Assembly: GCA_032622095.1 (NCBI GenBank)
Contig: CP136066.1
Location: 46,226,911 to 46,290,910, forward strand
DNA from: Siphonodentalium dalli
Lineage: Eukaryota > Mollusca > Scaphopoda > Gadilida > Siphonodentaliidae
DNA length: 64,000 bases
Direction: 5' to 3'
Shown here: in pieces, positions 8,472 to 64,000 of the stretch
How positions within the stretch are numbered: the first letter of the stretch is position 1
How the letters are laid out: each line of letters begins with the position of its first letter
Translations under genes and position numbers: made by a program
The notes under the pieces: model-generated
Told to the model about the DNA's origin: nothing
Database searches by the model: none
Seen by the model: only the letters and a program-made list of their open reading frames with translations

Positions 8472-9079
8472 GAATATTTCCATAATATCAAATGACGAAA
8501 TTATTTATGATTGACTATATGATAGGATTGATTTTATTGTATACACCAAATGACTCATTTTACTTAAAATATTTATCTATTGAAACCTTATATTATATGC
8601 GAAAAGCCTACTGCTTTGTACTGATAGCCGACAGAGGCGATAAATAGGAACCTTTAACACTTATGATTTATATAATGGCATATCATATATACTAAAACAA
8701 AATTATTGGCTACATTTATAAAATAAAAATATAATTTATTTACTTGGTGTAAACAATATTTATTTCAAAAATCAAACATATTGCACAATACACACATAGA
8801 TACATAGAGATTTAGGAAGAGGATTGGACAACAAGCAAAATGCTTTTTTAAAGTCCTCTCCTTGCGGAATAAATGTTACATCATGTGACGGAAATATCAC
8901 TTGAGGTAAAGCAGATTTGTTTACTTAATTCAACTAGGTGTTCATTATACAAACTTGTATATTTAGCAGCGTATACTTAGAAAGGCCGGTTGCTTTTGCG
9001 CAGCAAACAATTTAAACCATAAAACATCTAGCTAAAATTATGGTATAAGAATACAAGAGCGTCGAATTATTTAGATTTA

Positions 9080-15066: not shown

Positions 15067-17540
15067 TCATGTTGGGTCATCTCTTGTTGTTACGTGAATC
15101 TTCATACACGCCTTAACAAATATCGCTAAACTTTTCTGAATTGCTGGGTTTTGGCTACCGAGTAAAATATAAAATCGTGCTCTAGATGACTCGTGCCAAA
15201 AGTTAGCCGGAATATATTTTATTCTTAGATCCAGGTATTTTGGACAAATCATCACAACGTGGTACTCATCTTCTATGTGGGTCCTGCATTTTTGACAGGA
15301 TCGGGATTTTTTCTTTATTTTTACTCCACCTTCCAGACTCACAACGCAGTTTGTGATTACATGTTATTGTTAGTCGTAATAGTTCTTGGGCTAGGTCACG
15401 CGGTAGATTTTGCAAATAGGATTCATATTCCATTGTACGTTTAAACTTCATGTATAATTTACCACGAGAGGAGTTGTACATGTCCCACCACCAAGTCTGA
15501 ATAAAATTATCTTTGAGAGTGCTTTCGATGGCCATTTTTGTTTTCGGATGAAATTTTCTGACATGTCCATATATAACTCATGCCGACGGAATCCAATATG
15601 CCTTTAACTGATTGAATCCACGTGTTCACCTTGTCGTCCCACCCAGCTCCCCCAATCTGACGAAAAGTGAACAAAGTTCCCGCGCTAGAGGAGAACACTT
15701 GCCATTTAGTATGTGGTTCCAATATTGAATAATTCTCATCTTACATCTGATCTGACTGGATATCTGCCAACTTCTCCGTACACCATGAACGTGGGCGTGT
15801 TGATTTTCATTTTAAGAATATGTATATAATATCTCAGGATTACTTTGTCAATTCTGATGTGTTTTCTATACCCCACATTTCACTTCCATATAGAAGAATT
15901 GGTTCTATAGTTTTTGTCAAAAAGCATTATTAGTAGGTCGTGTGTCAAATTTAGGTTGTTGATATTCCCTAAAAACCCATGCATCGCCTTATTCCCAATC
16001 ACCGATATGGCTTTGACTGCTTTGCAAAATCTGCCTGTGTAAAAGAACTCGATTCCGAGATAATTCATAGTGTCAACATATTCTATTTTATTGCCACCTA
16101 GATACAAATCGTCAAAATTTTCTGGTTTTCGGTTGCAGAAGAGAATTACTTTTGTTTTTGAAGTATTTACGTTTAGTTTCCACAACGATGTATAGTCCCC
16201 AAACGCGTCGAGGGCCCTTTGCATACTGGCCTGGTTGTCGGCAAACAAAACGGTATCATCCGCATACAACAAACACAAGATTCTAATATATACTCCTAGT
16301 TTTTGTATGAATTGATCGCCTTGGAATTTCAAGTGTCGATACCACAATTTTTGAGAAATGGTTCGGGGGTCGTTTATGAATAACGAGAACAATAACGGAG
16401 ATAGTAAACCCCTTGTTTAACACCCGCTCTGCAAGTAAACAATTCTGACCGCTTGATATTCTGAACTACACAAGATGTTATGTTTCCGTACATGCTACGA
16501 ATAATTCTTAAATTTTTTCCATTTATACTGGATGTCATAAATTTGATCCAAAGTCCATCCCTCCATACTGTGTCGAACGCCTTTTTAAAATCGACAAAAC
16601 AGCAGTATATCTGTTTTCCTCTTGCAAGATAAAAGTCAATAAGACTTTTCATAATGAATATATTGTCGGTATAGTTGAGTGCTTTTACGGAATCCTGCCT
16701 GAAACTGGGTTAATATGCCCTCACCCTCACAAAATTTTGTGAGTCGATTATTCAGGACGGATGTAAATAGTTTTCCAAGTACACTGAGAAGTGTTATCCC
16801 TCTGTATGAATCGGGGTTATTCCTGTCACCCTTTCGTTTATAAATTGGCTGAATCATACCTTCGGTCCATGCATCTAGATGGGAAGCAACCTGTGTCTAA
16901 AATGGCGTTAAATAGCTTACAGTAAATTTCAGACATTATATGTATAGTGTGTTTTAAGTATTCTGGGCATACATTATCTAGACCCGACGATTTACCAAGT
17001 TTAAGTTTATCAAAATATTTCGTCGCTAGTGATAGGACAATTTAAAGGACCCTGTGCATCAATATCAAACATGTTTTCAAGTAACATACTTACATTGTCA
17101 TCTTCGTGTGACTCGGCGAGGCATTTGAAGTGTTCATAGAATAGGTCGGTTGATATCGTAGGTTCTTTCTTGGGCCTGGGTTCCCCTTTCATATCTGTTA
17201 ACGTTTTCCAGAACTCACTCGGATTTATACATGCATTGCGTAGTTGATTACATCTCTTATGGTTATATTCCGCGATTTTCTTTTTAATTACGCACTGTAT
17301 TTCCGCGCTGACGCGTTCATAAGAGTGCGATTGTGCGATGTTTTCTGTCGCCGATATTTTTTCCTCGATTTATGAAAAACATTTCGCATTCGATCGCATT
17401 CCCTGTCATACCATTCTTTCTGCTCCTCCCGTTTACTAATTCGCGACCCCCCCCACCCTTGTATACTCCTTTGCCGGCGATATTTCTGCAGACTCGTCGG
17501 CATAGTGAGAATAAGCCGTTATATTGTGTTTGATATAAAA
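15067..17540 (-). pseudogene. decayed LINE (non-LTR retrotransposon) ORF2, 5'-truncated
   Basis: Minus-strand fragments in several frames together trace one LINE polyprotein. In order they are: a linker with WYDRECDRMRNVFHKSRKKY (about 17500-17290); a region to about 17010; the RT start with NPDSYRGITLLSVLGKLF and QAGFRKS (16857-16636); the RT catalytic core VDFKKAFDTVWRDGLW (about 16590); GVKQG (about 16420); the second catalytic motif YADDTVLFAD (about 16260); the thumb with LWKLNVNTSKTKVILF; and a C-terminal CxxC...H...C zinc-knuckle-like CQKCRTHIEDEYHVVMICP near 15300-15230. Frameshifts and stops separate the pieces, and the endonuclease domain is absent, as expected for 5' truncation. 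RT signature and C-terminal knuckle point to the CR1/L2/Jockey group of LINEs, but the clade is not certain. It is not functional. Confidence 0.9.
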
Positions 17541-21004: not shown

Positions 21005-24000
21005 CGGACCCAGACATACTTGTGGGGCGAATGGTCCGTATAAGCATTACTTGTGGGTTGTTGTCACTTGTGGGGAGCACCCCGGAAGTGACCATGTCGA
21101 AATGCGTATTTTTGATATATGTGAGCTGCATTCAAAATATCGTGTTCGCAACCACACCCACACGGCCGGCCATGTCTATCCGAAAAATCATCATTTTCGC
21201 TGTTTTAATTCCACCAATCAAAACTAAGTAGTTTTGCACCCCATAGATAGCAGGATACGGATTTGAAGACGTGAAAGTTCGCGCCATATAAATTTACCAA
21301 GCACGATGCACCATCTCCTCTAATGGCTGCCGGACCGATTGTTCACCTCGAAAGTTCACAGGCTCACAATTCGGATGAACATTGCCAAAGTTACATACAG
21401 ATTCTTTCAAAATGAATCTAAAATTCGTTGTTTATATATAATGACTATAGTCAGTTTATCGATTATTTTCAATTAATGGGTGAAAAACAGGTGTGGGTAG
21501 TTGTGGGTTAAATCGCACGTATCTTGAATACTTCTGGGGCGAATTGCACTTGTGGGTTTCACCTGACAATTTTGCCCCCAAAATTTAAATTCTGGTAGAG
21601 CTACCCACAAGTAGCTGAAAATGTTCACACCCCACAGTTTTCGGTCAGTAGGCTATTTTTAGTTGTCCGTCCGTAATTCGGCCGAGATCATGAACAGAAG
21701 TGTTTTTTTTTAATTGTGAGAATGTCACAAGACTTTACAAATTGAAAGTTGATATGCGCATGTGCATGGCCGTCCTGTAAATTCTGGAATTGTGGGGTTT
21801 TGTAACCAATGCTCACTCAGAATTTTGACATTACAATTTCGTATTTATTTTATAACTATTCCGAATACACAGGGAAAAGTGTTTTGACAGTAATTGAGGT
21901 GAATGTAATGCTGAATGGTTAATATTACTGTCTGAATGGTGTTGAAAACAATTAAAAACTAACAATAGATTTTCAGCCGAAAAGTAGTTTGCTACTTGTG
22001 CATATCATTATCATTTTTAAACTTTCATGACATATTAATTATCGTGGCAAACAAAATGACAACCTTGCATGGTGTTTGAGTGAGACCATACAGTGGCATG
22101 TACCCGAGACCAATGTATAGCGCTAAAAATGCGTTTAGTTTCTTATATATTTTGGGTACCTTTGATATCGTTTCATTTGTTCCAATTACATTTTTCTAAT
22201 CAGCCGATCTCCCGAGGTATGCCGGCATGTTCGTGTATTTTCGAAAATAAGTGCATTCTCGATATATATACTGCCATGTTTGTGACGTTTTTGTTTTCCA
22301 AGTTTCGCCAGCATCTCTACCACTTTCGTTGCGGGATACGGCGTTTCTGTTGAATCTTATTTGTCCATGCGAGAACAACGGTCTATGTTGACAATGATTT
22401 AATGATAGAACGGTTCTCCCGTTTGCTACACAATGTCAACATAGATTTTAGTCATTTACATTGATCCAAGTAACACAATATGTTTTTTCTCAAATATACT
22501 TTGTGTCAAATGGCAATTGTCTAGAGTCACTAACAGTTGAGCATAGCACGAATTATACATAATTTATGTTGGTCGACGAACTTCAATGCTGTATACAGTT
22601 CTTTCTAACTACCCACCAGTGAGTGACACAGCGGAAGGCGCGTGTTTGGTTATAGCATGCTTGAAAACATTTTGTTCAATGCAATTTTGTATCGATAGTA
22701 TATGTACCCAGAACGCACAAAATATTCGAGGTGGTGAAAAATAACATATTTCAAAATCAATATCTGATAACTCTGATCTTTGATTGGTGGGGTCCTCGAC
22801 TCGAATCAAATAAATTCATAAAGAAATAGTCGCTGCGCTGTTTGTTCACTGCTATAAAATTACCATCAGAGTATTAAAAAGTTCTATATTTAAACGGAAT
22901 GAATATGATCTCTACGATAGCCAGCGTAGAACTTTGTGACATGATCTAACATTTGGCGACCCATACTATATTCTATAGGAAAGAGAATTATATTTAGCAC
23001 AAACGACAAATCATGCAATTACTACAATATGTTGTGTTGAAATTTAAATACAAAGGTATCTGAACATAATTACTTATTGTATTAGTAATATTATGTTCCT
23101 GCATGTCTGGAACCCCATCGCACCGTCGCTACGTCCCTGCTAAATACAGGGGGATTGTTATATAATTAAATTCTTGTCAACAGAGACCATTAATTGTTAT
23201 CGCATGGACCCATATGACCAAATTGAAACGCCTTATCGCAGTACCGAATAAATAGAGTCGCTGGGGAAGCTTATTTACGAAGACACCCGGATATCCTCGG
23301 CTGTTGTCGGTGGTTTCTTCGTCCAAAATAGAAAGCGGATTGTTTGGGTCGCAAAAAGCCCGATTCTGTTGTAATTTTCAAGACTTGAAGGCGTCTTTTT
23401 GGGACATATATTTGTCGTAGTTTAGGCATTTATATATCTACCTATTTTTATACCTGGACAAATTCAAAAGCGAATACTATTTTGGAGCACAAGCCGTCAT
23501 CTGGCTTTAACCAGTTAATACTGGGTAGTGGCTGACAAATTGTTACGCTGTCTGTTGAACTTATTATTGGAATCCCTGCAAATAAATGAATCCATGGAGA
23601 AATATGAGGGGTGTTTTCTGTCACAACGCCCCTACACACGGAGAGTCTATCATTGCAACGCGCGCCTTGTTAACTGAATGATAGGATATGTACAATTATG
23701 GTCGTGGATACCCTATAATATTCGTCAATTTCACCCCACATGTCTACTTAAGTTGCACATATACGGACATAAGTTTCCAGAAATTATTAATGGCTCTCAC
23801 TTGTCTGACGTTGCACAAGTATATACGGACATGGATTCCAAAAACAATTTGACAATTCTCTCACCCCACACCCCACCAATATTGCACAAGTATGGCTGTG
23901 AATAGCCCGCAATTTTCGGTCCCTGACACCCCGCAGTTTTTGTCCTAAGTTGCTACGCACAACTACCTGTGGTGACCATCTTGCAACCCACAAATTGTTT

Positions 24001-24183
24001 TTGCACAAGTACCTCTGGAATCGTACGGACGGACGCGCACCTCACAATGCTCACCCCACAAGTAATGCACACTCCACAAGTAATGCACACTCACAAGTAA
24101 TGTACACCCCACAAGTAATGCACACCCCACAAGTAATGCACACCCCACAAGTCACTATATATGCACAAGTATGTCTGCATCCG
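21005..24183. mobile_element. candidate 3.2 kb TIR element with TTGTGGGG subterminal repeats
   Basis: The left end 'cggacccagacatacttgtg' (from 21005) is matched in reverse complement by 'cacaagtatgtctgcatccg' (to about 24183), a 20-bp inverted terminus with two mismatches. Inside each end the motif gcattacttgtgggg(t)tg recurs, in forward orientation near 21050-21080 and in reverse as a 17-19 bp tandem array at 24040-24150. Looser copies occur at 21540-21620 and 23700-23900. Orientation flips between the two halves, as expected for subterminal repeats of a DNA transposon. No transposase or target duplication was recognised. Composite origin is possible. Confidence 0.45.
24045..24155 (+). repeat. 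17-19-bp minisatellite 'caccccacaagtaatgcac'
   Basis: About six tandem copies of ccacaagtaatgcacac(cc), some shortened. The array lies just inside the right end of the candidate TIR element. The repetitive peptide encoded across it (NAHSTSNAHS / VMHTPQVMHTPQ) is a by-product. Confidence 0.85.
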
Positions 24184-25515
24184 TCTGGACGGAGTGGTCA
24201 TATGACACGATTGCCATCATCTCTATAGCAGAAGTAATCAAGAAATTTAGGTTATCGAAAAATAACTTTAATGGCTAAATGTTTGACTACCAATCGGTTT
24301 ATAGTATTTTGTGGATTGACAGCTTGTGATTAAATTATTGTGAAATGCCCTATATAAATGCATCGATTATTACAATGTATAATCGTGCGCATACCAGTGA
24401 TTTTTGTTTTAATATCACTCCAACTAATGTGTCCAGAATCGAAGTTGATGGTACGATTATCATGATGGTTGATTATGTGTGGACACACGTGGTAGGGATT
24501 TTTGTCAGGGTTTATGGACGAGCTACTAGCCATTCGTAAAACTAGATAATCGAGGGCGTAGCCAGAGACCATTTAGTTTACGAATGTCCAGTAGCGAGAC
24601 CATTAACCGACCAAGTTTTATAATATACAAGGAGAAATTACATTGATACAGATGAAACATTCCGATAAATATCGATAAATGAGACGTTTATGAACGTTTT
24701 CTGTGGAGAAAATAGTCCTTGGCAGACAGCAAAACCACAGCCCCTGACACGGCGCGTGTCAGTGGAAATTGCACGTGGATTTTTTCGCGGTTAAAATAAT
24801 ATTGTCCAGGCATATACAACTGTAAATTACAGCTTTGTTCGAAATTAAACTTCGATATACGCAAACATATAATAGATATTTGTTTTCGCTGTAAATATTG
24901 CGTAGTATATATACGTAACATATACGGTCGACGCAATTATCTGTGTTTTTGGGCACGAATGCATTTTATGATAGTTCTGACTCGCGAATTACCAAAGTAA
25001 TATCGTTCGGCGCAGAAGAACAGTAACTATATAGATACAACTGGTATTCAAATTAACAGAGTCGCCGTGCATATACAACGGGAGACATGAAAATTCTAGA
25101 TTACGAATGTCGACATGTGGAATAACGGATAGTATAAACTGCCCATTTGGAGATATCGAAAGTCGAGGTAGAACAAAGGAGCTGGGTTTTAAGTGCTGTT
25201 CAAGTGCATCCACGAGGAAAAGATTTTGTCTTTCAAAATACAATCGGGAAACAAATAAGATATTTCGCTGGCGTTTGAGTGTTAACATGTTATCTTCATA
25301 ACGATATTGGTATTCAGCTCAATGTCTTGACAGGCTCCAAACGAATCAGAGAATACGTGGGCAAGAGGCGGTCCAATGCGAGGGTGGCTCATCATTATTA
25401 ATGAGTCGTGGATCAATACTCAGCGGACTAACGTTGCCAACAGACCTCGCACGCTTTCATTGCGTTGTGGAATCAGCTACAACTCGATCTGTGCAGCGCA
25501 GCAAGAAAATCGAAG

Positions 25516-25818
25516 ATGAACCATTTATGCCTTCTTGTTACCTGTTCCCTTCTGATCGGGGCAGCCACTGCCAAGAAGACCAAACAGACAACGTTTGAAA
25601 TCGTTCCTGGTTGGAAAGAGAAAGGCTTCAACATCACTCATGCCGTTGGGGTGAAAGCCGTTTCTGAGACATTGTGCGCGACCTCATGCCTTCGACAAAA
25701 CTGGTGCAGGACAGTGACATTCTTTGCGGGACTTGACACTGACCAAAACTGTTTTCTTTCATGTGGGGCCGCGGGTGAGCTCGAAGAAGATGCCAGTGCC
25801 GTTCTAATGAGAAAGCGG
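25516..25818 (+). CDS. PAN/fibrinogen-related secreted protein, exon 1 (signal peptide and PAN-like domain)
   Basis: First coding exon of the only well-supported host gene. Translation starts at ATG 25516 (A at -3); the open frame upstream has no ATG, and this start places a signal peptide first: MNHLCLLVTCSLLIGAATA, hydrophobic core residues 4-17, likely cleavage after A19. Residues ~27-101 resemble a PAN/apple module: C54, C58, C64, C79 and C83, with the characteristic LCATSCLRQNWCRTVTF stretch. PAN modules bind proteins or sugars outside the cell. N39-I-T is a possible N-glycosylation site. The exon ends at 25818, phase 0, before a strong donor GTGAGT. It continues in 32616-32640 and 34685-35331 to a 324-residue protein. 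Function is inferred: a secreted, probably sugar- or pattern-binding lectin-like protein. Confidence 0.85.
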
Positions 25819-25989
25819 GTGAGTACCTTTTTTTTCCAATTTACTACTGAATAGTTCCACAAAAAGAAAAAATATCCACTCCTGCATTCCCAATGCTTTA
25901 TTTATTCTTTATTAATTGTTTTGCGAATTGCGAAATACAGAAAATCACAAGTTACAAAACGTTGAATTAAAAAAGATATACTCTTGTCT

Positions 25990-26580
25990 TTGGAAAATAC
26001 CACCATTGTTGGAATTATCTTTTTTTTTATTAAAATCCCCCGGTAAATGCACATATCATCACTTTAATAGTAATGAGTATTTATTGTTGAACTTTGATAA
26101 TAATTTCCAACAACAGTTTTTACTGCTGACAACTGTGGGAAATGCAGACTGATTACGTTGATAATCTACTTGACGACGATGACGTCGCCTGAACCAAAAA
26201 AGACTTTGTTCTACAATTAAGCCTACACAGATCACTAATTTGTTCAATTAAATGAAGCATTATCGACCAAATGTGCTGTTCACTACAATACAAGTCATGG
26301 TTATTTCACACTAATAGGATAATGTTCATACATCTTCAACTTCAACAAACAAACACGTGAGAAATTGAATTACATCAGTCATTTTGGCTAAGAAATAATA
26401 AAAATTTGAAAAAAATTAGATGGTAAAAAAGGGTGAGTTCTTATTCATTTAAAAGTCAATAATTATCGATAACACCCCAATTTTTTTTAACAAAAAGTTT
26501 CTCTGTATCGACATGTCTAATGTCAATCTCCCCAAATCGCATATTTAAATCCAAGTCGCCACTATACTCCAACTTCTGAA
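25990..26580 (+). repeat. intron 1 duplicated block, copy 1
   Basis: Starts with a T-run and 'ttattaaaatc', then 'ggtaaatgcacatatcatca', 'gataatctacttgacgacga' and 'catcttcaactt'. The same order recurs at 27535-28085 with high identity; copy 1 has a ~30-bp extra segment near 26110-26140. Confidence 0.85.
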
Positions 26581-26584
26581 ACTA

Positions 26585-26870
26585 TTGGACCGTTCCTTTC
26601 CTTGTTAAGTATGTATTGTTTATCGATCATTGTGAACTCCCTTGTTAATTGTGTATTGTTTATCGGTTATTGTAAACTCCCTTGTTAAGTATGTTTTGTT
26701 TATCGATCGTTGTAAACTCCCTTGTTAAGTATGTATTGTTTATCGATTATTGTAAACTCCCTTGTTAAGTATGTATTGTTTATCGGTCATTGTAAACTCC
26801 GTTGTTAAGTATGTATTGTTTATCGATTATTGTAAACCTCCTTGTTAAGTATGTATTGTTTATCGATACA
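26585..26870 (+). repeat. 40-bp minisatellite, short array
   Basis: About seven copies of a 40-bp unit (ctcccttgttaagtatgtat + tgtttatcgattattgtaaa). The array ends at 'tatcgatacattatttaaag', the same junction as the larger array at 30125-30955. Confidence 0.9.
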
Positions 26871-27534
26871 TTATTTAAAGTGGCGCGCTCGTTTTAAACG
26901 GCTATATTTTAATGTATATTTGACTCGTTTATGCCTACAGCAGACAACCTCCCATTTCTTTTGACATCCATACATTTGTGCACCTTCTTCAGTGTGTGGG
27001 GAAATTATATGACCTGTATTGGTTACTCTATAAAACTATATTTTAATGTATATTTTACCCGTTGTAAGGACACGCACCTGTGTTGTGAACTGGTTGGCGT
27101 TGTTGAAAATGTTGATCTTACCACCAAGCGCAACTTGATCCCGTGGTTCTCGATGTATCATCAAAGTCGTGCAGTATCTTTATAATATATCTATTAACTC
27201 CAATTTGAGAGTTTATTCAAACAAGGTCTGTTTGCACTGTAAATTATTAACCCATTTGGTCAACATTATATGGGTCATACATATTGATCACTGGGCATCA
27301 AGTGCTATCACAAGTAGCGATCATCTTACCAGCACACAACCTGGGAACCTTTGGAAGTTTTGACAGGGAACCTAATACAATCGAAAAAATAACATAGATA
27401 ATATATTTCGTTGTTATTATCTGTTTCTTAATAATGTACTTCACTGTAGGTGAAGGTCCCAACTGGAAATTTCACGCTTTAAGTGACTTTGTGAGCGATT
27501 TTGCTTTGCATTTCTTACAATTATGGAATTGTTG
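26871..27534 (+). repeat. block following the 40-bp array, copy 1
   Basis: Begins 'cattatttaaagtggcgcgc' and continues through 'cctgtgttgtgaac', 'aaaatgttgatcttaccacc' and 'tgtacttcactgt'. It is collinear with 30955-31500. Copy 1 has an additional ~120 bp near 26930-27050 that includes a second 'ctatattttaatgtatattt' motif. Confidence 0.8.
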
Positions 27535-28085
27535 CAATTATTATTTTTTTTTATTAAAATCAACCGGTAAATGCACATATCATCACTTTAATAGCAATGA
27601 GTATTTATTGGTGAACTTTGATAATAATTTCTGATTACGTTGATAATCTACTTGACGACGATGACGTCACCTGCACCAAAAAGGACATTGTTCTACAATT
27701 AAGCCCACACAGATCACTAATTTGTTCAATTAAAAGAAGCATTATCGACCAAATGTGCTGTTCACTACAATACAAGTCATGGTTATTTCACACTAATAGG
27801 ATAATGTTCATACATCTTCAACTTTAACAAACAAATACGTGAGAAATTGAATTACATCAGTCATTTTGGCTAAGAAATAATCAAAATTTGAACAAATTTA
27901 GATGGTAAAAAGGGTGAGTTCTTATTCATTTGAAAGTCAATAATTATCGATGAAACCCCAGTTTGTATTAACAAAAAGTTTATATGCATCGACATGTCTA
28001 ATGTTAATCTCCCCAAATCGCATATTTAAATCCAAGTCGCCACTATACCCCAACTTCTGAAACGAATGGACCTTTCCACAGCTGT
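27535..28085 (+). repeat. intron 1 duplicated block, copy 2
   Basis: Second copy of 25990-26580. It ends at 'cccaacttctgaaacgaatgg', where copy 1 continues into the 40-bp array. The duplication therefore covers array plus flanks. Confidence 0.85.
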
Positions 28086-28603
28086 CAATCAAATATTTAT
28101 TAGCGGATATTTTCGACCAACCAATGACTGAGCCGGCCAATGGCTGCAGTGAAAATTCTGCTGGCATCTTTCTTCACCATAATTTTTATTCCCATGCATA
28201 CATTCAGTGTTAAATTGGCTATATTGAAATAACGTTTTTATTGTCAAATCATAATATTTACATACTGAGTGTGATTATCACTAAATCCCGCATTCCCATT
28301 GGTCGGCGCCCACGTGACTAGTTGCAATTAATTCTCGGTAAGCGCAAGAGGGTCATAATTGCAACACCACAATTACATCGACGCGTCATTGATTTTGGAG
28401 AAGAATGTTTTGGGCGCATTTGCACTCGCGCAGGATTGACTTAATAAATCATCAGGTTTCAATATAAAGAGCCTCGTTTTGAAATTGTACTCAGCTGCTT
28501 TCTGGTCGGGTTGCTATGGGATATTTTGGGCTGGTATTGTCACGATACACTTTTCGATTTAAATACATTTACAAAAGTGGCATTTTCGCTAAATGTATAT
28601 AAA

Positions 28604-28768
28604 TATAAGGATTAACTGTCATGTGGACTTTTTTATGGAGATATAACCGTGCGGTAAGTGGTCATAACTTGTATGTAAAACCCGAAGGGATTTACACAAG
28701 TTATGACCACTTGCCTCACGGTTACATCTGCATAAAAACAGTCCACATGACAGTTAATCCTTAAATAT
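28604..28768. repeat. 165-bp near-perfect hairpin
   Basis: The left arm 'ataaggattaactgtcatgt' continues to 'ggtcataacttg'. The right arm mirrors it as 'caagttatgacc' to 'acatgacagttaatccttaa'. The arms are ~73 bp around a ~20-bp loop containing 'aacccgaaggga'. Likely a fold-back MITE or palindrome. Confidence 0.85.
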
Positions 28769-30124
28769 ACTGAGAGTTATATTTCCGCCATGGTGTTATA
28801 ATTTATCCGTGATTATAACAATGTTTTTCATTTGGCATGACCCTTGTCAAATTTTCACATTTAATGGCAAAACGAATGTGTGTTCTTTGGTTTAGATATA
28901 TTAAAGAGTTCAGGGACCTGTCTGTCTGTTCTGGGCTGGCCACGATGTTTCTTCCAGAGCCTTTGACCGATTTCAACCAAATTTGGTGTGGTGCCTCGGG
29001 ATACCCCGAAAGATGTTATAACGGCCGTATTCTTTTAATTGAAAATTTTAAACAAATTTATTTTTATTTAATTTGTTTTTCAAATTGTTTAATTTTTTAA
29101 TAAGAAGTTTCGTTCTAAAAAGAAATTTAAAATTTAAAAGTTAAATTAAATGTTTTTAAATTAAATTAAAAAAAATAAAAATTTATATGAAACAATTTTT
29201 TTTAATTTTCAATCTAAAAATCTAAATAGAAAATTAAAAACTTAGAAATTCAAAATTTACATAAGTCATACATGAGTACAAGTGCTGATGTGTTCACCTC
29301 GCAAGTCGATCTCACGTAACAGGCAATATGTATATGGGTTATACGTCCACCATATTTGTTATTCCACGAACAATATTTTTAAGTGGCCTGGCGACTCGGT
29401 CCAAGATAGAGACTTCTCTAGATTCCGTCTTAATTGGAACTAGAACTCAGTGCGGTCAACACGTCGGCAATGATTGGGTTGTCAGTGGGCACATATTACA
29501 TTGTCTGTATGATCCATGTAAAACACCAAATACACGATAATTACATAGATTACATGCATGTATGTATCCACCCTTAAGTCTTATTACCAACAGGCGGTAC
29601 CACCGCTCTGGGAGTGGTCTCTATGGAAAGCTCCATTACGAAGCATTTGCGGAGTATACGCATTACGCGTGATTCCGGTTTAACCAATCAACGATCAGTA
29701 TACTCAGTACGTACTCGCCAACAGGTCACTGAGTTCATGTTCAATGCACAAACTAATTAGAAATTATTGCTGAAATATGGGAAAATATTGGCGACTTGGA
29801 TTCAAATATCCGATTGATATGGGGAGATTAATTTAGATATATATGACGATATACGAAGCATATTTTGTTCAAAATGTGGGGTATCTATCGGTAATTATTC
29901 ACTTTGAAATGAACAATATATCTGCTCATGTGCTATCAAGGGCCCCATCAGCCGGTGCTCTCTGTGATTTTTGTGTTTAGCGTCTGTTTCGAATTTTTGG
30001 AACAATTTATCATGACGTATTATGATTTGAAAATATAGCTTGATCGATGGGCGTTGGAATTTTGAGAGTCAGTTCAGGCGTTTGTGAATTATGGCCGTTA
30101 GAAGTGAGGAGGTATCTGAAAAGA

Positions 30125-30955
30125 AAACTCCCTTGTTAAGTGTGTATTGTTTATCGATTATTGTAAACTCCCTTGTTAAGTATGTATTGTTTATAGATTA
30201 TTGTAAACTCCCTTGGTAAGTATGTATTGTTTATCGATTGTGAACTCGCTTGGTAAGTATGTATTGTTTATCGGTTATTGTAAACTCCATTGTTAAGTAT
30301 GTTTTGTTTATCGATTATTGTAAACTCCCTTGTTAAGTATGTATTGTTTATCGATTATTGTAAACTCCCTTGTTAAGTATGTATTGTTTATCGATTATTG
30401 TAAACTCCCTTGTTAAGTATGTATTGTTTATCGGTTATTGTAAATTCCCTTGTTAAGTATGTATTGTTTATCGATTATTGTAAACTCCCTTGTTAAGTAT
30501 GTATTGTTTATCGATTATTGTAAACTCGCTTGGTAAGTATGTATTGTTTATCGGTTATTGTAAACTCCCTTGTTAAGTATGTATTGTTTATCGATTATTG
30601 TAAACACCCTTGTTAAGTATGTATTGTTTATCGATTATTGTAAACACCCTTGTTAAGTATGTATTGTTTATCGATTATTGTAAACACCCTTGTTAAGTAT
30701 GTATTGTTTATCGATTATTGTAAACTCCCTTGTTAAGTATGTATTGTTTATCGATTATTGTAAACACCCTTGTTAAGTATGTATTGTTTATCGATTATTG
30801 TAAACTCCCTTGTTAAGTATGTATTGTTTATCGATTATTGTAAACTCCCTTGTTAAGTATGTTTTGTTTATCGATTATTGTAAACCCCCTTGTTAAGTAT
30901 GTATTGTTTATCGATTATTGTAAACTTCCTTGTTAAGTATGTATTGTTTATCGAT
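30125..30955 (+). repeat. 40-bp minisatellite, long array (~21 copies)
   Basis: About 21 head-to-tail copies of the same 40-bp unit seen at 26585-26870 (cttgttaagtatgtattgtt core). Internal copies are nearly identical (variants tatcgg/tatcga, cacccttg/ctcccttg), and the edges are more degenerate. One unit near 30230 is shortened. Confidence 0.95.
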
Positions 30956-31500
30956 ACATTATTTAAAGTGGCGCGCTCGTTTTAAACGGATATATTTTAA
31001 TGTATATTTTACTCGTTTTAACGACACGCCCCTGTGTTGTGAACGGGTTGGCGTTATTGTTGAAAATGTTGATCTTACCACCCGGCGCAACTTGATCCTG
31101 TGCTTCTCGATGTACCATCGCATCACCACAAAGTCGTGCAGTATCTTTATAATATATCTATTGACTCCAATTTGAGAGTTATTCAAACAAGGACGTTTTG
31201 CACTGTAAATTATTAACCCATTGGGTTAACATTATAACATTACATATTAATTAATGGGCATCGAGTGCTATCACAAGTAGAGATCATATTCCACTAGTAC
31301 AAACGTTTTGAAGTTTGACAGGGAACCTTATAAAATCGAAAAACATAACACAAGTTATATATTTCTTTGTTATTATCTGTGTCTTAATAATGTACTTCAC
31401 TGTTGGCGAAGTTCCCAACTGGAGGTTTCACGATTTAAGTAACTTTGTGAGCGATTTTGCTTTTACATTTATTACAATTATGGAATTTATCATGGATAAT
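30956..31500 (+). repeat. block following the 40-bp array, copy 2
   Basis: Collinear with 26871-27534: 'cattatttaaagtggcgcgc', 'cctgtgttgtgaacgggttg', 'gtgcagtatctttataatat', 'tgtacttcactgttgg'. The plus frame at 30930-31175 and minus frame at 30959-31186 lie in this repeat and are not genes. Confidence 0.8.
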
Positions 31501-31635
31501 TAATGCGATATCGGCTCACATACTGTACGTCTCAGAAAATCATACAATTTCGAGTTGGGACCTTCACCTACAGTGAAGCACACTACTAAAAAACACATAA
31601 TAACTAAGAAATATATTTCCCGTGTTATGTTTCAA
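31340..31635. repeat. inverted repeat, ~75-bp arms
   Basis: 'cataacacaagttatatatt' to 'cttcactgttggcgaagttc' (about 31343-31420) is mirrored at about 31555-31630 ('gggaccttcacctacagtga' to 'atatatttcccgtgttatg'). A related piece, 'aactaagaaatatatgtcct', sits at 50933-50952. Confidence 0.65.
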
Positions 31636-32615
31636 TTATGGGGCATGTTCACGGGGATTTCAGAAATTAATGCTATACTCCTGTATGAAAGTTGTGAAAT
31701 ACGTGGTGTCACGGATTTCGTATATAGTGGTAATCTGATCATATGTTGTGTAAACTATAGTGTAGAATATAGAACGGAGATAATTCGTTTTATTCCCCAT
31801 TTATTATGTTCTAGAATGTGATTCGGACTGTCGTGCTGCGGCATTACGCAAAAGTAAAATATGCGCTTCAAATATTTACGAATTCCAGACCTCCTGTCAC
31901 AACAACATCCAAAAGTTATTTCAACATTACTAGTGGCTTTGTTATACCGATAGAAACAACTGTGACATAATAAGACTTCAAACCTTTTTGCACTGAATGG
32001 ACTCTACCATTCAATTATACAAGTATATATTGGAATGGTATATTATATTTAGATGGGGCGATCATGCAATAAAAGTAAACGACAGACATGAAAACAGTTA
32101 ATGCAAGATTAGAATTATCCATTTCCATTGATGGGAAATGATCGTTCAACTTATTATCTGAACATTCCCCAAATTGAACTACTCGTCGGTGAGTATTTAG
32201 TAAAGAAAGGGTTAAAATACCAAACATTGTTATTTTATAATTGATAAATTAATGCCATAATAATTGCTATCGAAGTCTTCTAAATCATCAAAACTATGTA
32301 AAACGGATGTGGACAGATTTGTTGTTGACATATCATCATTTGAGTTGATGTATCGCTGCGAAATCAAATGGAACCGCGGTTGTTGATAGAAATTGTCCTT
32401 GTTGTTTACTTAGACATTTGGTAATATATCCATTTCACGTCGTACTGGTAAACATTTATAATCTGAGCATTCTGAGCTTGTACAGCTGTTTAACTTGATT
32501 GTTTCCAAATTCCTGTGCGGAATATTGTGGGGAAATAAGGTAACAATAATCAAAGCGCCAAATAACACAATTGGCTACATATTATATTATATGTTATACA
32601 TTTTGTTTTACAGAC

Positions 32616-32640
32616 ACCAGCACTAAAGAACGCTAGGGGT
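32616..32640 (+). CDS. PAN/fibrinogen gene, 25-nt microexon
   Basis: A 25-base exon between acceptor TTTTACAG and donor GTGAGT. It encodes TPALKNAR plus the first base of the next codon. Exon 1 ends in phase 0, 25 bases leave one base over, and exon 3 starts with two bases that complete the codon (G|AC, aspartate). The resulting junction reads ...NARDCKDLMDAG, matching the usual start of fibrinogen-related domains, where an 'A-R-D-C' type sequence precedes the first conserved cysteine. The phase match supports the call, although no transcript is available. It forms the short linker between the PAN-like and fibrinogen-like modules (residues 102-109). Confidence 0.75.
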
Positions 32641-32679
32641 GAGTGTATCGTATTTTATTCCCAATTAAATTCACTATCA

Positions 32680-32870
32680 TTAGTTTGGCAGACGCATCGC
32701 CAAAATAACTGAATCATACATCGATAACTATCAATAGTATGTCACACGCATCGCGAAATACACAAATACATCTATTAATCACTATAATTCAAACGCCAAA
32801 CGCATCGTGAAAATACACAAAACCATCAATCAATCACTATCATTCGTATAAATAGCACACGCATCGACTT
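32680..32870 (+). repeat. ~60-bp degenerate tandem repeat (x3)
   Basis: Three units in intron 2 carry '(c)acgcatcg(c/t)gaaaatacac' and 'atcaatcactat(c/a)attc' type sequence. Confidence 0.55.
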
Positions 32871-33595
32871 TGTGAAAATCGGCGAGTAAACAAATTTGTA
32901 TCAAATTTAGTGCCCCTATATCTCACCCAAAACAGCATCAGTTTGACGTATATCACCACAACAATTACATTTCTCGTATCACGGAGAAAAATATTCATTA
33001 ATTAGGTAGAAATCGGTGTTAAAAATATTTGGGTGCCATTCTCCAACTCCATGCACCCCTGACTCGAACGGCCCCATTTTTGACATATTTAAACCACACA
33101 ATGGGACTCATGTTATCATGGAGATGATTATTTATAAGTTTTATGGTAATTGGCACTTTATAAATTCTTATAAAATGTAGTGCCCCCCCCCTTCTCTCAC
33201 CCAAACGGTACCAATTTGGCGTCTTTAAACCACACGATTAGATTCATTGTATCATGGTGAAGAATGTGTATCAATCGGATGGAAATCGGAATAATTTTGT
33301 TTTTCCAATTTAGGTCCCAGTATCCCCTTCCGTGGACTCGTACGGTCCCACTTTTGACATATTTAAACAACACCATTAGATTACTCATATCATGAAGATG
33401 ATTATGTATACGTTTGGTGGAAATCGGCGACAATATCTGTTGCTGCCCCTCAACATTTTCTGACCCTGACAACAACAGCGTCAAAATCCTAACACGTACA
33501 TTATCTTCCTCGCAAAATGTTACCCGCTAGACCAACTAGATGGTCCCCCGTGAATGTCTATAGAACACAGACAGACATACGTTCGCAAATATAGA
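32870..33595 (-). mobile_element. Helitron A 5'-end fragment (copy 4) in intron 2
   Basis: Read on the minus strand, it starts TCTATATTTGCG at 33595. It continues with the gtctgtctgtgttctatag tract and 'gggaccatcta', then about five ~140-bp central monomers. It stops near 32870 without the 3' hairpin or CTAG, so it is 3'-truncated. The base before the 5' TC is G, not the usual A. The minus-strand frames at 33019-33204 and 33197-33484 are translations of the array. Confidence 0.75.
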
Positions 33596-34479
33596 CCTAG
33601 AACTATCATGTTATTGTCTAGATCGTACTCAGTGTTAGTAAACTAAATCCATGCTATGTTAGAGTAGAGTACGTAAAGAGTGTGATAAGCAAAACACACA
33701 ACACCGGGGAGATCCCACTAATGAACTTTGATTAAAACTGTACCATGTTGTTTATAACATACATTTAGAGCGCTAGCTAATCCTCACCACTCAACTTTTC
33801 GGTGTTGAATTGGTAACTGTGAATTAATCTCACAAAAATATCACCAGATTATTGAGTGTTTGCTTATCGCACATTTGTTATGTGCTGTATACAAACAGAC
33901 GCTCGACTCGCACACGTGTGTTTTGTGGACAATATCGTGGTCATACTATCTTGTTCTATACTATTATTATATTGTTGAGGAATTTTTATTGCTGTTTACA
34001 ATGTGAAATTTAACTTACAGCTATCCATGCCTTTAATTATCACATGGAACAGAAGATAAATATATCACATAACAATTGACATTAACTTTTCAGAAACAAA
34101 TTTTGATTCATTATTAACACAACGTGGAGACGACTGTCACTAAATAATGCTTGTTGTCTAAACATCCGTACATCAATATCAAATTTGAAAATGCAACACA
34201 CAATTTATATATTATAATTTTATTTAAAATGTCAAATTGTTATATATTGATTTGCATGTGAGAGCTAGAATAACATAATTATATTGTTTGCACTAAGCAC
34301 GAAGTTGCGGAATCTGAGCCTTTATGATGATTCTAAAACCATAAGATATCAATTCCCGATTATTTTCCAGAGTAATCAGTGTATTGCTTGGTTAGTTGAT
34401 TGTGGTTTATCATCGTTTTACGGGTAGAGGAAAGACCGCGCAGAGGGTTAATTTCACAGTGAAGTCACTCCATTGCGTG

Positions 34480-34602
34480 TAGAAACCACCGACCCCCGGG
34501 AAGCCCAGATATAAGATCATGTCTACCATCCCTTAGAGTCGACCACGAATCCGCGCTTGTCGGGCTCCGAACACTCTACCGATTGGACCACCGGGGGCCC
34601 TC
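34480..34602 (-). mobile_element. tRNA-derived SINE candidate in intron 2
   Basis: The minus strand begins gggcccccggtggtccaatc and continues ggtagagtgttcgg. This resembles a tRNA 5' end with an A box (TGGTCCAATCGGTAGAG). About 30 bases on, ggattcgtggtcgactc is a degenerate B box. The 3' side carries cttcccgggggtc, partly complementary to the start. Length and GC-rich composition differ from the surrounding AT-rich intron. A decayed tRNA gene is the alternative. Anticodon arm and clean cloverleaf were not established. Confidence 0.45.
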
Positions 34603-34684
34603 ATTATATGGCCATTACTATTTTATAAATATATCATGTAAAATACAAATATTAATTCATTATTGTATCTTATTCCCTACTCAG

Positions 34685-35331
34685 ACTGCAAAGACTTGAT
34701 GGACGCCGGCCTTGGAACTGATGACGTGTGCACAATCAACCCTGGTGGTTCCGGTGAGGTGAATGTGGCTTGCGACATGACGACCAACGACGGAGGCTGG
34801 ACAATATTTCAACAACGATCCAATGGCATGTTCGATTTTTACCGGAACTGGACGGAATATGTCGAGGGATTCGGCAGCAAATCGATAAGCGGCGGTGAGT
34901 ACTGGCTCGGCTTAGAAGCGATTCATCAACTGACCAACATGGGCCCCACTGAGCTGTATGTTAAACTCACTTCTGCTGACGGAGAGGACATATATGCTAA
35001 GTACTCTAACTTCGCCCTCGGTAACGCCATCAGCCTCTATGCGATCACAACAACATGGGGGGAAGGGACAGCAGGCGACTCACTACTGGATCATGAAGGT
35101 CGAGCATTCAGCACTTATGACAATGATCACAGCACGTCAGGTTGTGTCATTGGTGTATGTTCCATTATATTTCACGGAGCGTGGTGGTATAATTGCTGCT
35201 TTGTTTCCAACTTGAACGGAGCATACCTCAACAGCGCGAGTACTCCATTTGGACAAGGAATGCAATGGGAGACAGCATTTGGTTACTATCACTCTGTGAG
35301 AAGCACAACCATGATGCTCAGACGCAAGTAA
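34685..35331 (+). CDS. PAN/fibrinogen-related secreted protein, exon 3 (fibrinogen C-terminal domain)
   Basis: The last coding exon follows acceptor TTCCCTACTCAG and ends at a TAA (35329-35331). It encodes residues 110-324, one complete fibrinogen-related domain of ~214 residues, the normal size. Landmarks are the first disulfide pair C111-C139, CDMTTNDGGWTIFQQR (139-154), GEYWLGLEAIHQLT (180-193), the calcium site around D255-N-D257, and GAWWY (274-278) with SNLNG (284-288). The C268...C281 spacing is the family's usual 13. Such domains in ficolins, tachylectins and molluscan FREPs bind acetylated sugars and pathogen surfaces. Oddities: the usual N-C-A before GAWWY is V-C-S, and C125, C263 and C280 are extra, C263/C280 possibly forming an added disulfide. 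N164-W-T may be glycosylated. There is no coiled-coil or collagen stalk. Confidence 0.93.
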
Positions 35332-35873
35332 GAGACATGACACAAGATGTCACAAGAGAGAAGCCAAGTGTCAACGATTGGTGTGAGTTTGTGCTCTATC
35401 TAATAGATCATGCATAGGAGGCTTTTATTGACGAATTATTTTTTATGTTTGAAAAAACTGATTCATTCTATAGCAGGGACGTTGTCAGTGGTATTTGGTA
35501 CCAATACTCTGGTGTAAAAGTTTGTTCTTAGCCGGAAATTGAAATGTTGAGATTTGAGAGTAAGCAGTGTTCTTATCTTGTAAAATCAACACACGAAACA
35601 TCCGATGTAAATAGGAGATCGATTAGAACTTTTACTCGTCATTATAACATGACGATGTAGAGACATCTAGTGGGTTCAATCGTTATATTATCTCACAATC
35701 ATGCCGTAGATTTATAACATACACGTCCTCAATGTGATGTGAGTTCCGATGGCATAGAATATATTCTTATTTACGAAGTGGTTACATTTCTTGTTTCGAC
35801 TCGTGTCGTGTCACAAACAATTCTAAAGTCGGTGGACAAAAAACAAAACAAAAAAACAACAAACTATAAAAAA

Positions 35874-35886
35874 AATAAAAAATAAA
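35874..35886 (+). promoter_or_regulatory. candidate polyadenylation signals (AATAAA x2)
   Basis: AATAAA at 35874-35879 and 35881-35886, about 545 bp after the stop codon, are the first exact hexamers downstream of the gene. They lie in an A-rich tract (35830-35930), so chance occurrence is possible. Confidence 0.4.
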
Positions 35887-35939
35887 CTAAACTAATATAA
35901 AAATAAAATATAAATAAAATAAAACGTTCGAAACCGACT

Positions 35940-38040
35940 GAATACAGTTTATTCAGCTTATTTACATAACAATGTAACCTAACTGATACATGGTAAGCAG
36001 ACATGTAGTGTTTATGGTCACGCGACAACACAACAGTAGAGTATCATGACACGTCCCTGCCGAATAGAGAGTACCTCTATGGTACAACCTTACTGAGCCT
36101 CCTGGACTTGACACCCATTGACGCACGTTATCCAGCGTGTACCACACATTCATGGAGCCTTGCTTGCGCTCATGGTGCCCTGGAACACGCAAGAAGTTAG
36201 AAGAAAATGTGACACATTGGCTCTTAGTGTTTGCTGTGTTAGTTTGGGGGTTGTTTGTTTTATTTTTTATTGTTTTTTTTTTTTTCAATTTGTGCGTGTG
36301 TATTTGTATTATATTTATTTTTGGGGTATTAAAATTCTTTGCATTTTCGATCTCTTTGAGTATTTATCCAAACAATGACTATCCAAGGGTGTTACCGTGA
36401 GTATATTAGAACACGAATCCCAATGTTCAAGGACATATTATACCGACCATTATTGTCGAATAATGTAATTAAAATAACCTTTGACAAAACATGTGAAGGA
36501 AATATGGTTAACGTAATCATGTCAGATCAATCCATAATAATATCAACTGCATTTGAATAATACTTAACTTAAGAGAAACTGACAACATTTGATTCCATAT
36601 CGGTGCTCGGATAACATAAACTAGGTGTCATGCATGGATTCGAACATGGCGGTGCGTTACCTATATCGAAATGGACCTGATCGAAATTTCATTGGAGTTT
36701 CATGTTCATCTCTCGACGAATTTGATATCCTGTCCGAAAAACACACAATCGAAAAGCTATTGTTGACACTACTGTCAAGAACCGTTTGCAAACATCCTAG
36801 CCCCACATTTTAAAAAGCGCGGCTACGTGCCTGAATTTTGGATCTGGTCTACCTTTTTGGCTTACCGTAGCATGTCATACATGTATGAATGTTCTAGAAC
36901 TTACAAACAAAGAATTGTCTTACCCACCTAGCACCAGCACTTAAACAAACAGCTACATCTCTACTTTGATTTAGGTTTGTTCATTAATAAATTCGGTTGG
37001 GGTGAATATAAAGCTTTCGTTTCACACCGAAACGAGTCAGTAAACGATTTAACGAGTAAAAAACATAATTCAAAATCAGTAGCAAACGTGGATTCCATTC
37101 TTGGTGAGAATAAATGAGATTTGCGATATTAAACGGATATGGGTCATTTGATCCTCAAACTTACATGTATCTACTTTGCATACGTAATTTGGTATTAGAG
37201 ACAACAGACACCATTCACATAATAAACTACGACATATAATTATTAAGAATAGCTATTTGTAGTCGTTATTATTTCGCACGGTCCAAAAAACTTTTCGCAT
37301 CATTGACGATAACGAGTCCGTGTGGGAGACAATCCTGCTTGCCACTCGCAGTAAGGGGATGATGGTTCTGCGTGCCGTAATTATATTCGTTCTTGAAATA
37401 AAGGTTTAAACCCGAAAGGTGAACTTTATAGAATTTAAGTGCCATACCACTTCGAGAGGTGATACAGGTATAACATATATCTGTACAACTGAGCAAACAA
37501 TACAAATATCCGTCTTGTGCACGTCATGTTATATTTAATGACCTCTACCTGCCCTCAGAACAAAGCATTAACGCCAATTCCAGTATAAACACGCAACCGA
37601 ATGGCAAACAATAAAGTCTGGTAACTCTACATGCAGAATCGATGTTATCGTGAACAATAGAGTTATCTCTCTTCAATTGAGTCACTTTCAGCAGAAATGC
37701 AGATTTTACATTTTAAAAGCAGTTCCAATTATTGTATGGATAGTGTTGGTGCGTTACAGAAATTTAAACAATTGGAACGTATTTGACAATCGTTATAATT
37801 ATGTTGTTCAATGCATGTTTACGTAAATAATGTGAGTATCCGAGCATGTTATGAGGGATTCTCCGGGATAATTCCATTTCTGTCACCAACGCGTCCGCAT
37901 CAATACATCAGTTATATGAACATAATTATTTATGCTACATAGCCTGGTTATTACACTAAACCATACCCGGTGATTGGCCAACTGTCAATAATTTTATTGG
38001 TTCATGTGTGTCATATCCCAATAAAATGGGTTATGTGCAG
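35940..38040. other. intergenic, no gene seen
   Basis: Downstream of the PAN/fibrinogen gene. Small open frames on both strands (for example 35962-36288 minus and 36118-36400 plus) are lysine/asparagine- or phenylalanine-rich translations of A/T runs and have no domain signature. Confidence 0.45.
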
Positions 38041-41504: not shown

Positions 41505-43421
41505 TATGTTAGTCTTTTCAATCTGATTTTATCGACAGGTTGTGTACCGCACGAATGGTCACTGGGCGTTATCAAACCGAGTTTTTAAAATAAGAACGAC
41601 CCCTTAAATCCAGAGAATTACAGAAGAATAACACTCCTATGTGTAATTTATAAATTATTCACTACAATTTTATGCTTGCGGATTAATGATTTCCTCTCAG
41701 CTAATAGTATTCAAACTGAAGCACAAGCTGGTTTTCGAAGGGACCACATATTCTCCATGTTCGCACTTATACAACTGGTCAAAATGAAAAAAAGGAACTA
41801 CACTGTGCATTTATCGATATCACAAAGGCTTTTGACTCTGTTTGGCGAGATGATCTATGGGCCAAACTAAAGCACTATAATATCACCGGAAACATTTTAA
41901 ATGTTATTAAGAGTATGTATTTAGACATGAACATGAATATTTCGGCAAACAGTAGCATCGCTGATAGTTTCGATAGTATTGTTGGCTTAAAACAGGGTGA
42001 AGTCCTCTCACCAATTCTTTCTGCAATATACCTAAATGACGTGGAGGAATTTCTTGAATCGCGCCGATGCTGTTCTATTGACTTCGGTGAGTCAACCCCC
42101 GATATATACATGAAATTGTTTCTCCTCATGTATGCCGATGACACCGTGATTCTATCTAATTCTGAGAGCGGATTGCAATACTCACTATATAATTTCACAG
42201 CTTAGTGCAATATGTGGAAGCTCAACGTTAACTACTCGAAGACGAAAATAATGATTTTTGTAGGACGAAGCAAAAAGAAAACACCTCCATGATTCCACAT
42301 AAATTCAATACAATCAGAAATAGTCGATGATTTCACATATCTTGGAACTTGGTTCAGCAAGTCAGGTAAATTCACAAGGGAGCGCAACATGCGATGCAAA
42401 AATGCAAAAAAGGCTATCTACACCTTGATGAGTAAAGCCAGAACACATAAGCTGCCTATTGATACCATTTTGGACATTTATGAAAAGACAATAGTTCCAA
42501 TAATGACTTACGGATCAGAAGTATGGTGTTTCGAAATTACGCGAGCATTTGAAAAAATTGAAACTCTGGTTTCTTAAATTCGCACTTGGGTTAAAATCTT
42601 CCACCATGACACCACTTGTATATGGTGAAACTGGTATATACCCAATAGAGATTAAATGACAATCAGACACCTCTCATACTGGGGAAGAATCATGGACATG
42701 AATTGTGAAAGATTGCCTTTGAAACTGTACTATATTATGATAACTACACTAAAATATTTGGCTCGATTATATCAGCAAAAATCTTGAATAATTGGGTTTT
42801 TCCTCTTTTTTGATGAAACAAAGGGTACCGGAAAACGACACACTTTAATAAGTTGCTCAAGACCCGTTCAATGGCGAGGTTATTGACGCATCCAGTAAGC
42901 GCCCTTTCTACCGTATTACCATGCCAAATTTCGCCTTAACAATATTATATATCACTTGAAAATCATAACACAGTGGCATGCCTGATGAAATTCCGTACAC
43001 GCAACCATCGACTGCCCGTGGAAACTGGATCACGGATAGGCACATCATATGAGGAAAGGAAGTACAATCTCTTGATAAACCTAGCTGCCTTCATACAATA
43101 TGCCCTTGCCAGACAAGAAACACCATGAGGCTCATGATTGACACTATATATACACACCCCTTATTCACCACCACAACAACAACTGTACTGAAGACACCCC
43201 CATGAATAATACCTATCACCGACAACGAAGAACCAAAAATGAACTAAATAATAACGAAAAGACACCCACCCACGCGACCCCACCCAACACCATTGAGTAT
43301 TGTATACTTACAACGCATGCGTTTAATTGATGTATTACTATTTGTAAACATATAATATGTCAATGCTCCAATGTCATATTTTGACTACATGAGTGAATAA
43401 ATCTGAATCTGAATCTGAATC
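41505..43421 (+). pseudogene. decayed LINE ORF2 relic with (GAATCT)n tail
   Basis: Plus-strand fragments in shifting frames follow a LINE reverse transcriptase: GCVPHEWSLGVIKPSF (about 41538), NPENYRRITLLCVIYKLF (about 41608), EAQAGFRRDHIFSM (41720), the catalytic core ITKAFDSVWRDDLWAKL (about 41817-41870), GLKQGEVLSPILSAIYLND (41985-42040), the YADDTVILS motif (about 42132), MWKLNVNYSKTKIMIF (42210), TYGSEVWCFE (42505), MTPLVYGETGIYPIEI (42605) and KFRTRNHRLPVETGSR (about 42988). Stops and frameshifts occur throughout, and the endonuclease and most of the C-terminal zinc knuckle are missing. It ends in GAATAAATCTGAATCTGAAT... at about 43392-43420, a short tandem 3' tail typical of CR1/L2-like LINEs. 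It is not functional. Confidence 0.9.
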
Positions 43422-57440: not shown

Positions 57441-57615
57441 GCGATTTACTCTATCAGTGTACTAGACTACAAACGGAATGGCGATTTACTCTATCAGTGT
57501 ACTACACTACAAACGAAATGGCGACTTACTCTATCGGTGTACTAGACAACAAACGGAATGGCGATTTACTCTATCGGTGTACTAGACTACAGACGAAATA
57601 ACGATTTACTCTCGC
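57441..57615 (+). repeat. 40-bp minisatellite, forward half of a mirrored pair
   Basis: Four full units plus a partial of gcgatttactctatcagtgt + actagactacaaacggaatg. The frame at 57296-57601 runs through it. Confidence 0.9.
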
Positions 57616-57688: not shown

Positions 57689-57932
57689 AGTAAATCGCTA
57701 TTTCGTCTGTAGTATAGTACACTGATAGAGTAAATCGCTATTTCGTCTGCAGTCTATAACACTGATAGAGTGAATGGTTATTTCGTTTGTATTCTAGTAC
57801 ACCGATAGAGTAAATCGCCATTTCGTTTGTTGTCTAGTACACTGATAGAGTAAATCGCCATTTCGTTTGTAGTCTAGTATACTGATAGAATAAATCGCCA
57901 TTCCGTTTGTAGTCTAGTACACTGATAGAGTG
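57689..57932 (-). repeat. 40-bp minisatellite, reverse half of the mirrored pair
   Basis: Six units of the same 40-bp sequence in reverse complement (gtaaatcgccatttcgtttg + tagtctagtacactgataga). About 73 bp of single-copy sequence (57616-57688) separates the two halves. The whole is a ~490-bp imperfect palindrome. Confidence 0.9.
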
Positions 57933-63900: not shown

Positions 63901-64000
63901 AGTTTTATCAATTCTGGTGCCCCTCCCCCCTTCCGTGCATCACTGACTCGAACGACGCCACTTTTGCCACATTTAAACCACACCATTAGATTCTTCATAT
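60929..64000 (-). mobile_element. non-autonomous Helitron, family A copy 3 (runs off the window)
   Basis: Minus-strand copy whose 3' end lies at 60929: CTGCTGG|T on the minus strand, with the hairpin cctgggc-aac-gcctgg just inside. CTGG is the alternative CTRR form of the CTAG seen in copies 1 and 2. Moving right it is collinear with copies 1 and 2: the 3' half at 60960-62100, the internal 5'-like module with 'cccgtgaagttatatgtaga' at 62725-62790, then the ~140-bp monomer array at 62800-64000, still continuing at the window edge. It is older than the other two, with more substitutions and some rearrangement. Its 5' terminus is outside the window. Confidence 0.75.

Follow-up and report, generated by a model that had tools for sequence, protein, structure and literature searches.

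A predicted 25-nt microexon joins a PAN-like region to a fibrinogen domain in a gene of the scaphopod Siphonodentalium dalli

The combination of a PAN/Apple domain with a fibrinogen domain has already been reported in molluscs. One study describes a B. glabrata FREP that carries a PAN/Apple domain, and states that among molluscs domains of this kind occur in four genes of C. gigas and in some FReDs of L. gigantea (PMC7588048). The gene described here lies in a 64,000-nucleotide stretch of Siphonodentalium dalli DNA (contig CP136066.1, positions 46,226,911 to 46,290,910; hereafter the window). In its predicted form it shares that domain combination with the mollusc PAN/Apple FREPs as they are presented in the same text (PMC7588048), and it would represent an additional PAN-like and fibrinogen protein in a known, diverse family of invertebrate recognition molecules. 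The B. glabrata PAN/Apple FREP is described there as also having an IgSF domain, unlike the present gene (PMC7588048). No IgSF family was matched by the product (E up to 10) or by the six frames of positions 22001-37002 (E up to 1), and the product falls outside the strict definition of a FREP, in which one or two IgSF domains precede the fibrinogen domain.

Microexons are often missed or overlooked in annotation, according to the available text of two reports (PMC8831610, PMC7821500), and this risk is well described in the accessible parts of these and a third (PMC8831610, PMC7821500, PMC12409088). The 25-nt exon predicted here resembles the animal and plant microexons (≤30 nt) described in those texts in how small it is and in how easily annotation can miss it, and a tiny exon of this sort is not new in kind. 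No report of a microexon in a fibrinogen-related gene was found among the titles and opening parts of abstracts listed from one open-access library. Gene finders could plausibly overlook this exon, and an annotation without it would contain either two fragments or a probably incorrect two-exon gene, with the start of the fibrinogen domain lost.

The locus very probably holds a three-exon gene in which a signal peptide, a PAN/apple-like region, an eight-residue linker encoded by a constitutive 25-nt microexon, and a fibrinogen C-terminal domain follow one another (Table 1). The gene appears to be intact and of animal type, and would be transcribed and spliced in this three-exon form to give a secreted, fibrinogen-related, lectin-like protein of 324 aa. 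The exon 1 and exon 3 coordinates and splice-site flanks proposed in the initial annotation are present in the sequence, and its estimates of 6.8 and 2.0 kb for the introns agree with the measured lengths. Exon 1 opens with ATG and closes with CGG, after which comes a GTGAGT donor. The microexon (ACACCAGCACTAAAGAACGCTAGGG) is flanked by TTTGTTTTACAG upstream and GTGAGTGT downstream, with TTTTACAG on its acceptor side and GTGAGT on its donor side, and CCCTACTCAG stands directly 5′ of exon 3 (fuller upstream context TTATTCCCTACTCAG). One coordinate had to be corrected: the microexon had been placed at 32616-32640, and the sequence and flanking sites put it at 32614-32638. With the former interval the first two microexon bases are lost and the donor GT is read as exon, and translation of the joined exons stops just before exon 3. 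With the corrected position the three exons join to 975 nt encoding 324 aa and a stop, the frame is open throughout, and the phases close from the phase 0 end of exon 1 through the 25-nt exon to exon 3, as had been proposed. KNAR-D-CKDL is read across the junction of the microexon and exon 3, and the ARDC motif at the start of the fibrinogen domain is restored as claimed. The corrected three-exon structure and its frame closure hold as a prediction.

Table 1. Coordinates of the features of the predicted gene in the window.
Feature	Position	Strand	Description	Basis
Exon 1	25516-25818	+	303 nt, 101 codons, ends in phase 0	Reconstructed frame
Likely signal peptide, MNHLCLLVTCSLLIGAATA	25516-25572	+	Hydrophobic core, A-x-A before the cut	By eye
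PAN_1 match	25636-25779	+	Exon 1 residues 41-88	Pfam
Alternative donor-like GTGAGC	25775-25780	+	In exon 1, phase 1	
Intron 1	25819-32613	+	6795 nt; holds 40-bp tandem arrays and repeats	
Predicted microexon	32614-32638	+	25 nt; TPALKNAR and the first base of an Asp codon	
Intron 2	32639-34684	+	2046 nt	
Exon 3	34685-35331	+	Almost the entire fibrinogen C-terminal domain, then TAA	

Base composition differs between the exons and the introns. The GC content by codon position is 47-54% in both large exons (48-51% in exon 1), and intron 1 (33.4%) and intron 2 (36.6%) are below both of them; the window as a whole ranges from 32.5 to 41.0% in 2-kb steps. There is no TATA-like box within 300 nt upstream of the ATG, and the first AATAAA 3′ of the stop, at 35874, is inside an A-rich tract. 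These signals therefore do not define the outer ends of the gene, and both observations count against the three-exon reading.

The presence of the fibrinogen domain is beyond doubt. The whole product matches Fibrinogen_C (Pfam PF00147) with 185.1 bits (E 2.1e-54, cut-off 22) over residues 108-322 and nearly the full profile (2-219 of 221), bearing out the domain named in the initial annotation, and exon 3 alone scores 180.6 bits (profile 5-219). A PDB search returned 68 distinct sequences at E ≤0.001, the best being ficolin-2 chains (E 3.3e-49), and the matches listed include FIBCD1, MFAP4, tenascins, angiopoietins, fibrinogen chains and techylectin-5A. In NCBIfam, a bacterial fibrinogen-like domain is the one match to exon 3, at 26.6 bits vs a cut-off of 30. 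A tblastn search of the window gave no second fibrinogen gene, the best match outside the gene's own three exons having E 0.46. Exon 3 queries of two non-animal collections, which are uninformative on conservation, confirmed none of the pattern-matched stretches (0 of 1 in viral_contigs, 0 of 118 in genome_contigs).

As in ficolins, FIBCD1, MFAP4 and techylectin-5A, the fibrinogen domain is complete, and the alignment with ficolin-2 has points of agreement and departure. Both Asp residues of the D-x-D segment, which we take to be calcium ligands, are aligned (FSTYDND with FSTKDQD), and the domain may bind its ligand with calcium. The ficolin stretch WWYKNCHVSNLNG corresponds to WWYNCCFVSNLNG in the present protein, and the Asn-Cys-His of ficolin-2 is replaced by Cys-Cys-Phe, with Phe in the position of His. 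The Asn-Cys-His stretch, including its His, is presumably part of the ficolin acetyl-binding pocket, and because of this replacement the ligand may differ from that of ficolins. A further difference is that the PAN-like front part stands where ficolins have their stem, which is collagen-like.

The assignment of the front part is less secure. PAN_1 (PF00024) matches exon 1 with 20.8 bits (E 3.4e-4) and the full product with 18.3 bits, both under the cut-off of 21.4, and PAN_4 gives 15.4 bits in exon 1 vs a cut-off of 27. Since these scores are below the curated cut-offs we refer to the region as PAN-like only; that label, which the initial annotation also used, is a fair one, although the Pfam PAN_1 profile does not lift it to full domain status. 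A phmmer search of exon 1 against the PDB found no PAN protein among its two hits to E 10, both of which are NADH dehydrogenase chain 1 (E 1.4), and there is no NCBIfam match for exon 1. A single-sequence AlphaFold2 model of residues 21-101, the mature part of exon 1, has a mean pLDDT of 42.8 and is of no use for judging an apple fold. The low PAN_1 score and the lack of a PAN protein among the PDB hits count against the PAN-like component of the preferred reading. The region may make protein or sugar contacts. The likely signal peptide points to a secreted product, and two N-glycosylation sequons, at residues 39 and 164, fit a secreted protein.

We scored the plus-strand GT and AG sites of the window with approximate metazoan matrices, for which splice-site frequencies were entered from general knowledge. 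The main exon 1 donor at 25819 (11.49 bits) ranks first of 3859 GT sites and the microexon donor ninth, and the acceptors of the microexon and exon 3 rank ninth and twenty-fourth of 2820 AG sites. Exon 1 contains a second donor, at 25775 (CGCGG/GTGAGC), which scores 10.74 bits and ranks fourth of the 3859; its in-frame connection to exon 3 is missing from the earlier three-exon reading, and it counts against the three-exon gene. The gene, or an isoform of it, could have two exons, with exon 1 cut at 25774 and joined directly to exon 3. The donor is strong and its phase 1 suits exon 3, and the 301-aa product, which is without the last 15 exon 1 residues and the eight microexon residues, is in frame and matches Fibrinogen_C with 183.2 bits. 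This two-exon structure seems unlikely, however. It uses the weaker of the two donors, its profile scores are lower, if by small margins (Fibrinogen_C 183.2 vs 185.1, PAN_1 16.7 vs 18.3), it leaves a strong microexon unexplained, and the Arg before Asp-Cys is lost. Moreover, in the three-exon model the 25775 site is read as Gly-Glu, and the fibrinogen exon has GGTGAG Gly-Glu codons of its own at 34753 and 34894. The donor-like sites that these create, at 34754 (GTGAGG, 11.18 bits) and 34895 (GTGAGT, 10.57 bits), are presumably unused, as their use would cut the fibrinogen domain. Because such sites recur, we take the 25775 donor to be a coding coincidence.

A variant of this idea is that two in-frame forms arise by coordinated choice, either donor 25819 with the microexon or donor 25775 without it. 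We regard this as quite improbable, but were it true, the two forms would differ by exactly 23 residues comprising the end of the PAN-like region and the linker, this could alter how far the fibrinogen domain reaches or how it assembles, and the microexon and its twin donor would form one switch. A scan of the introns for further in-frame internal exons of 6-400 nt found none at ≥15 bits under the three-exon model (0 of 55 candidates in intron 1, 0 of 12 in intron 2). When the 25775 donor is used, one of the 76 candidates scores at least 15 bits, and it corresponds to the microexon entered from a weaker acceptor (32621-32638, 15.45 bits).

Returning to the three-exon gene, the microexon was compared with chance expectation in several ways. 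Linking candidates were defined as in-frame exons of 6-300 nt in the 8.9-kb gap with each site scoring at least 0, and the microexon, at 19.59 bits, is the best of 78, with a runner-up at 12.89 bits. Dinucleotide shuffles of the gap reached its score in frame in five of 1000 cases, and none of 1000 matched the score together with the Arg and Asp ending. Among splice-site pairs 6-60 nt apart in any frame and scoring at least 17 bits there are two on the plus strand, of which the microexon is the better, and five on the minus strand of the window, two with a common donor and the best at 20.6 bits. These strong pairs elsewhere in the window count against the preferred reading, and site strength alone is thus no proof of the microexon; beyond it, the case for the predicted exon is carried by the frame, the absence of stops and the domain junction. 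That exons 1 and 3 derive from different genes or gene remains, with the microexon as a chance splice-like pair, would suit the repeat-rich 9-kb gap between them and the minus-strand pair that outscores the microexon, but is highly improbable given the shuffling results and the strong sites at the bounds of two large exons that are both open.

In the three-exon gene the microexon would act as a frame adaptor (25 = 1 mod 3) between the phase 0 end of exon 1 and the phase 1 start of exon 3, so that its skipping from the main donor would ruin the frame; splicing exon 1 straight to exon 3 from that donor leads to stops. In contrast to regulated cassette microexons, its length is not a multiple of three and skipping it from the main donor does not keep the frame, and it therefore looks constitutive. 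TGC elements are associated with neural microexons; within 100 nt upstream of the predicted exon there is one, at -98, which gives no clear indication of neural-type regulation. An origin of the microexon from a repeat is not supported, as the window contains it once when up to three mismatches are allowed.

Other features of the window, namely its repeats, reverse transcriptase fragments and a partial channel match, have no bearing on the finding of the gene. ARAGORN reports no tRNA and there is no Rfam match at gathering score in the window. Ten ORFs elsewhere in the window, picked from 81 of at least 80 aa, were scanned against Pfam, and three contain reverse transcriptase (RVT_1) above the cut-off (15883-16416 and 16377-16709 on the minus strand, 41720-42202 on the plus strand); the other seven have no Pfam match at E 0.1. 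The reverse transcriptase fragments are most likely from LINE-type elements. Within intron 1, a segment is duplicated at 26149-26596 and 27631-28077 (94% alike), and the first duplicate includes a match to part of a Cys-loop channel ligand-binding domain at 26262-26477 (21.4 bits, below the cut-off of 26, E 1.8e-4). This match consists of two stretches in one frame interrupted by stops, and is either the decayed remnant of a captured sequence or due to chance. The same intron has two tandem arrays of a 40-bp unit, at 26600-26872 (6.8 copies) and 30125-30955 (20.9 copies), which have similar flanks on their 3′ sides (27037-27530 and 30991-31487, 85%), and arrays and flanks together may represent a mobile element whose interior contains the tandem repeats. 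A dispersed family of repeats, subdivided internally into units of ~138-140 bp, is present at 1301-2974, 9079-10712, 32869-33432 and 62461-64000, and its intron 2 copy starts ~230 nt downstream of the microexon. Two more 40-bp tandem arrays are at 57441-57612 and 57689-57931, and their consensus units are reverse complements up to rotation, such that the two arrays face each other.
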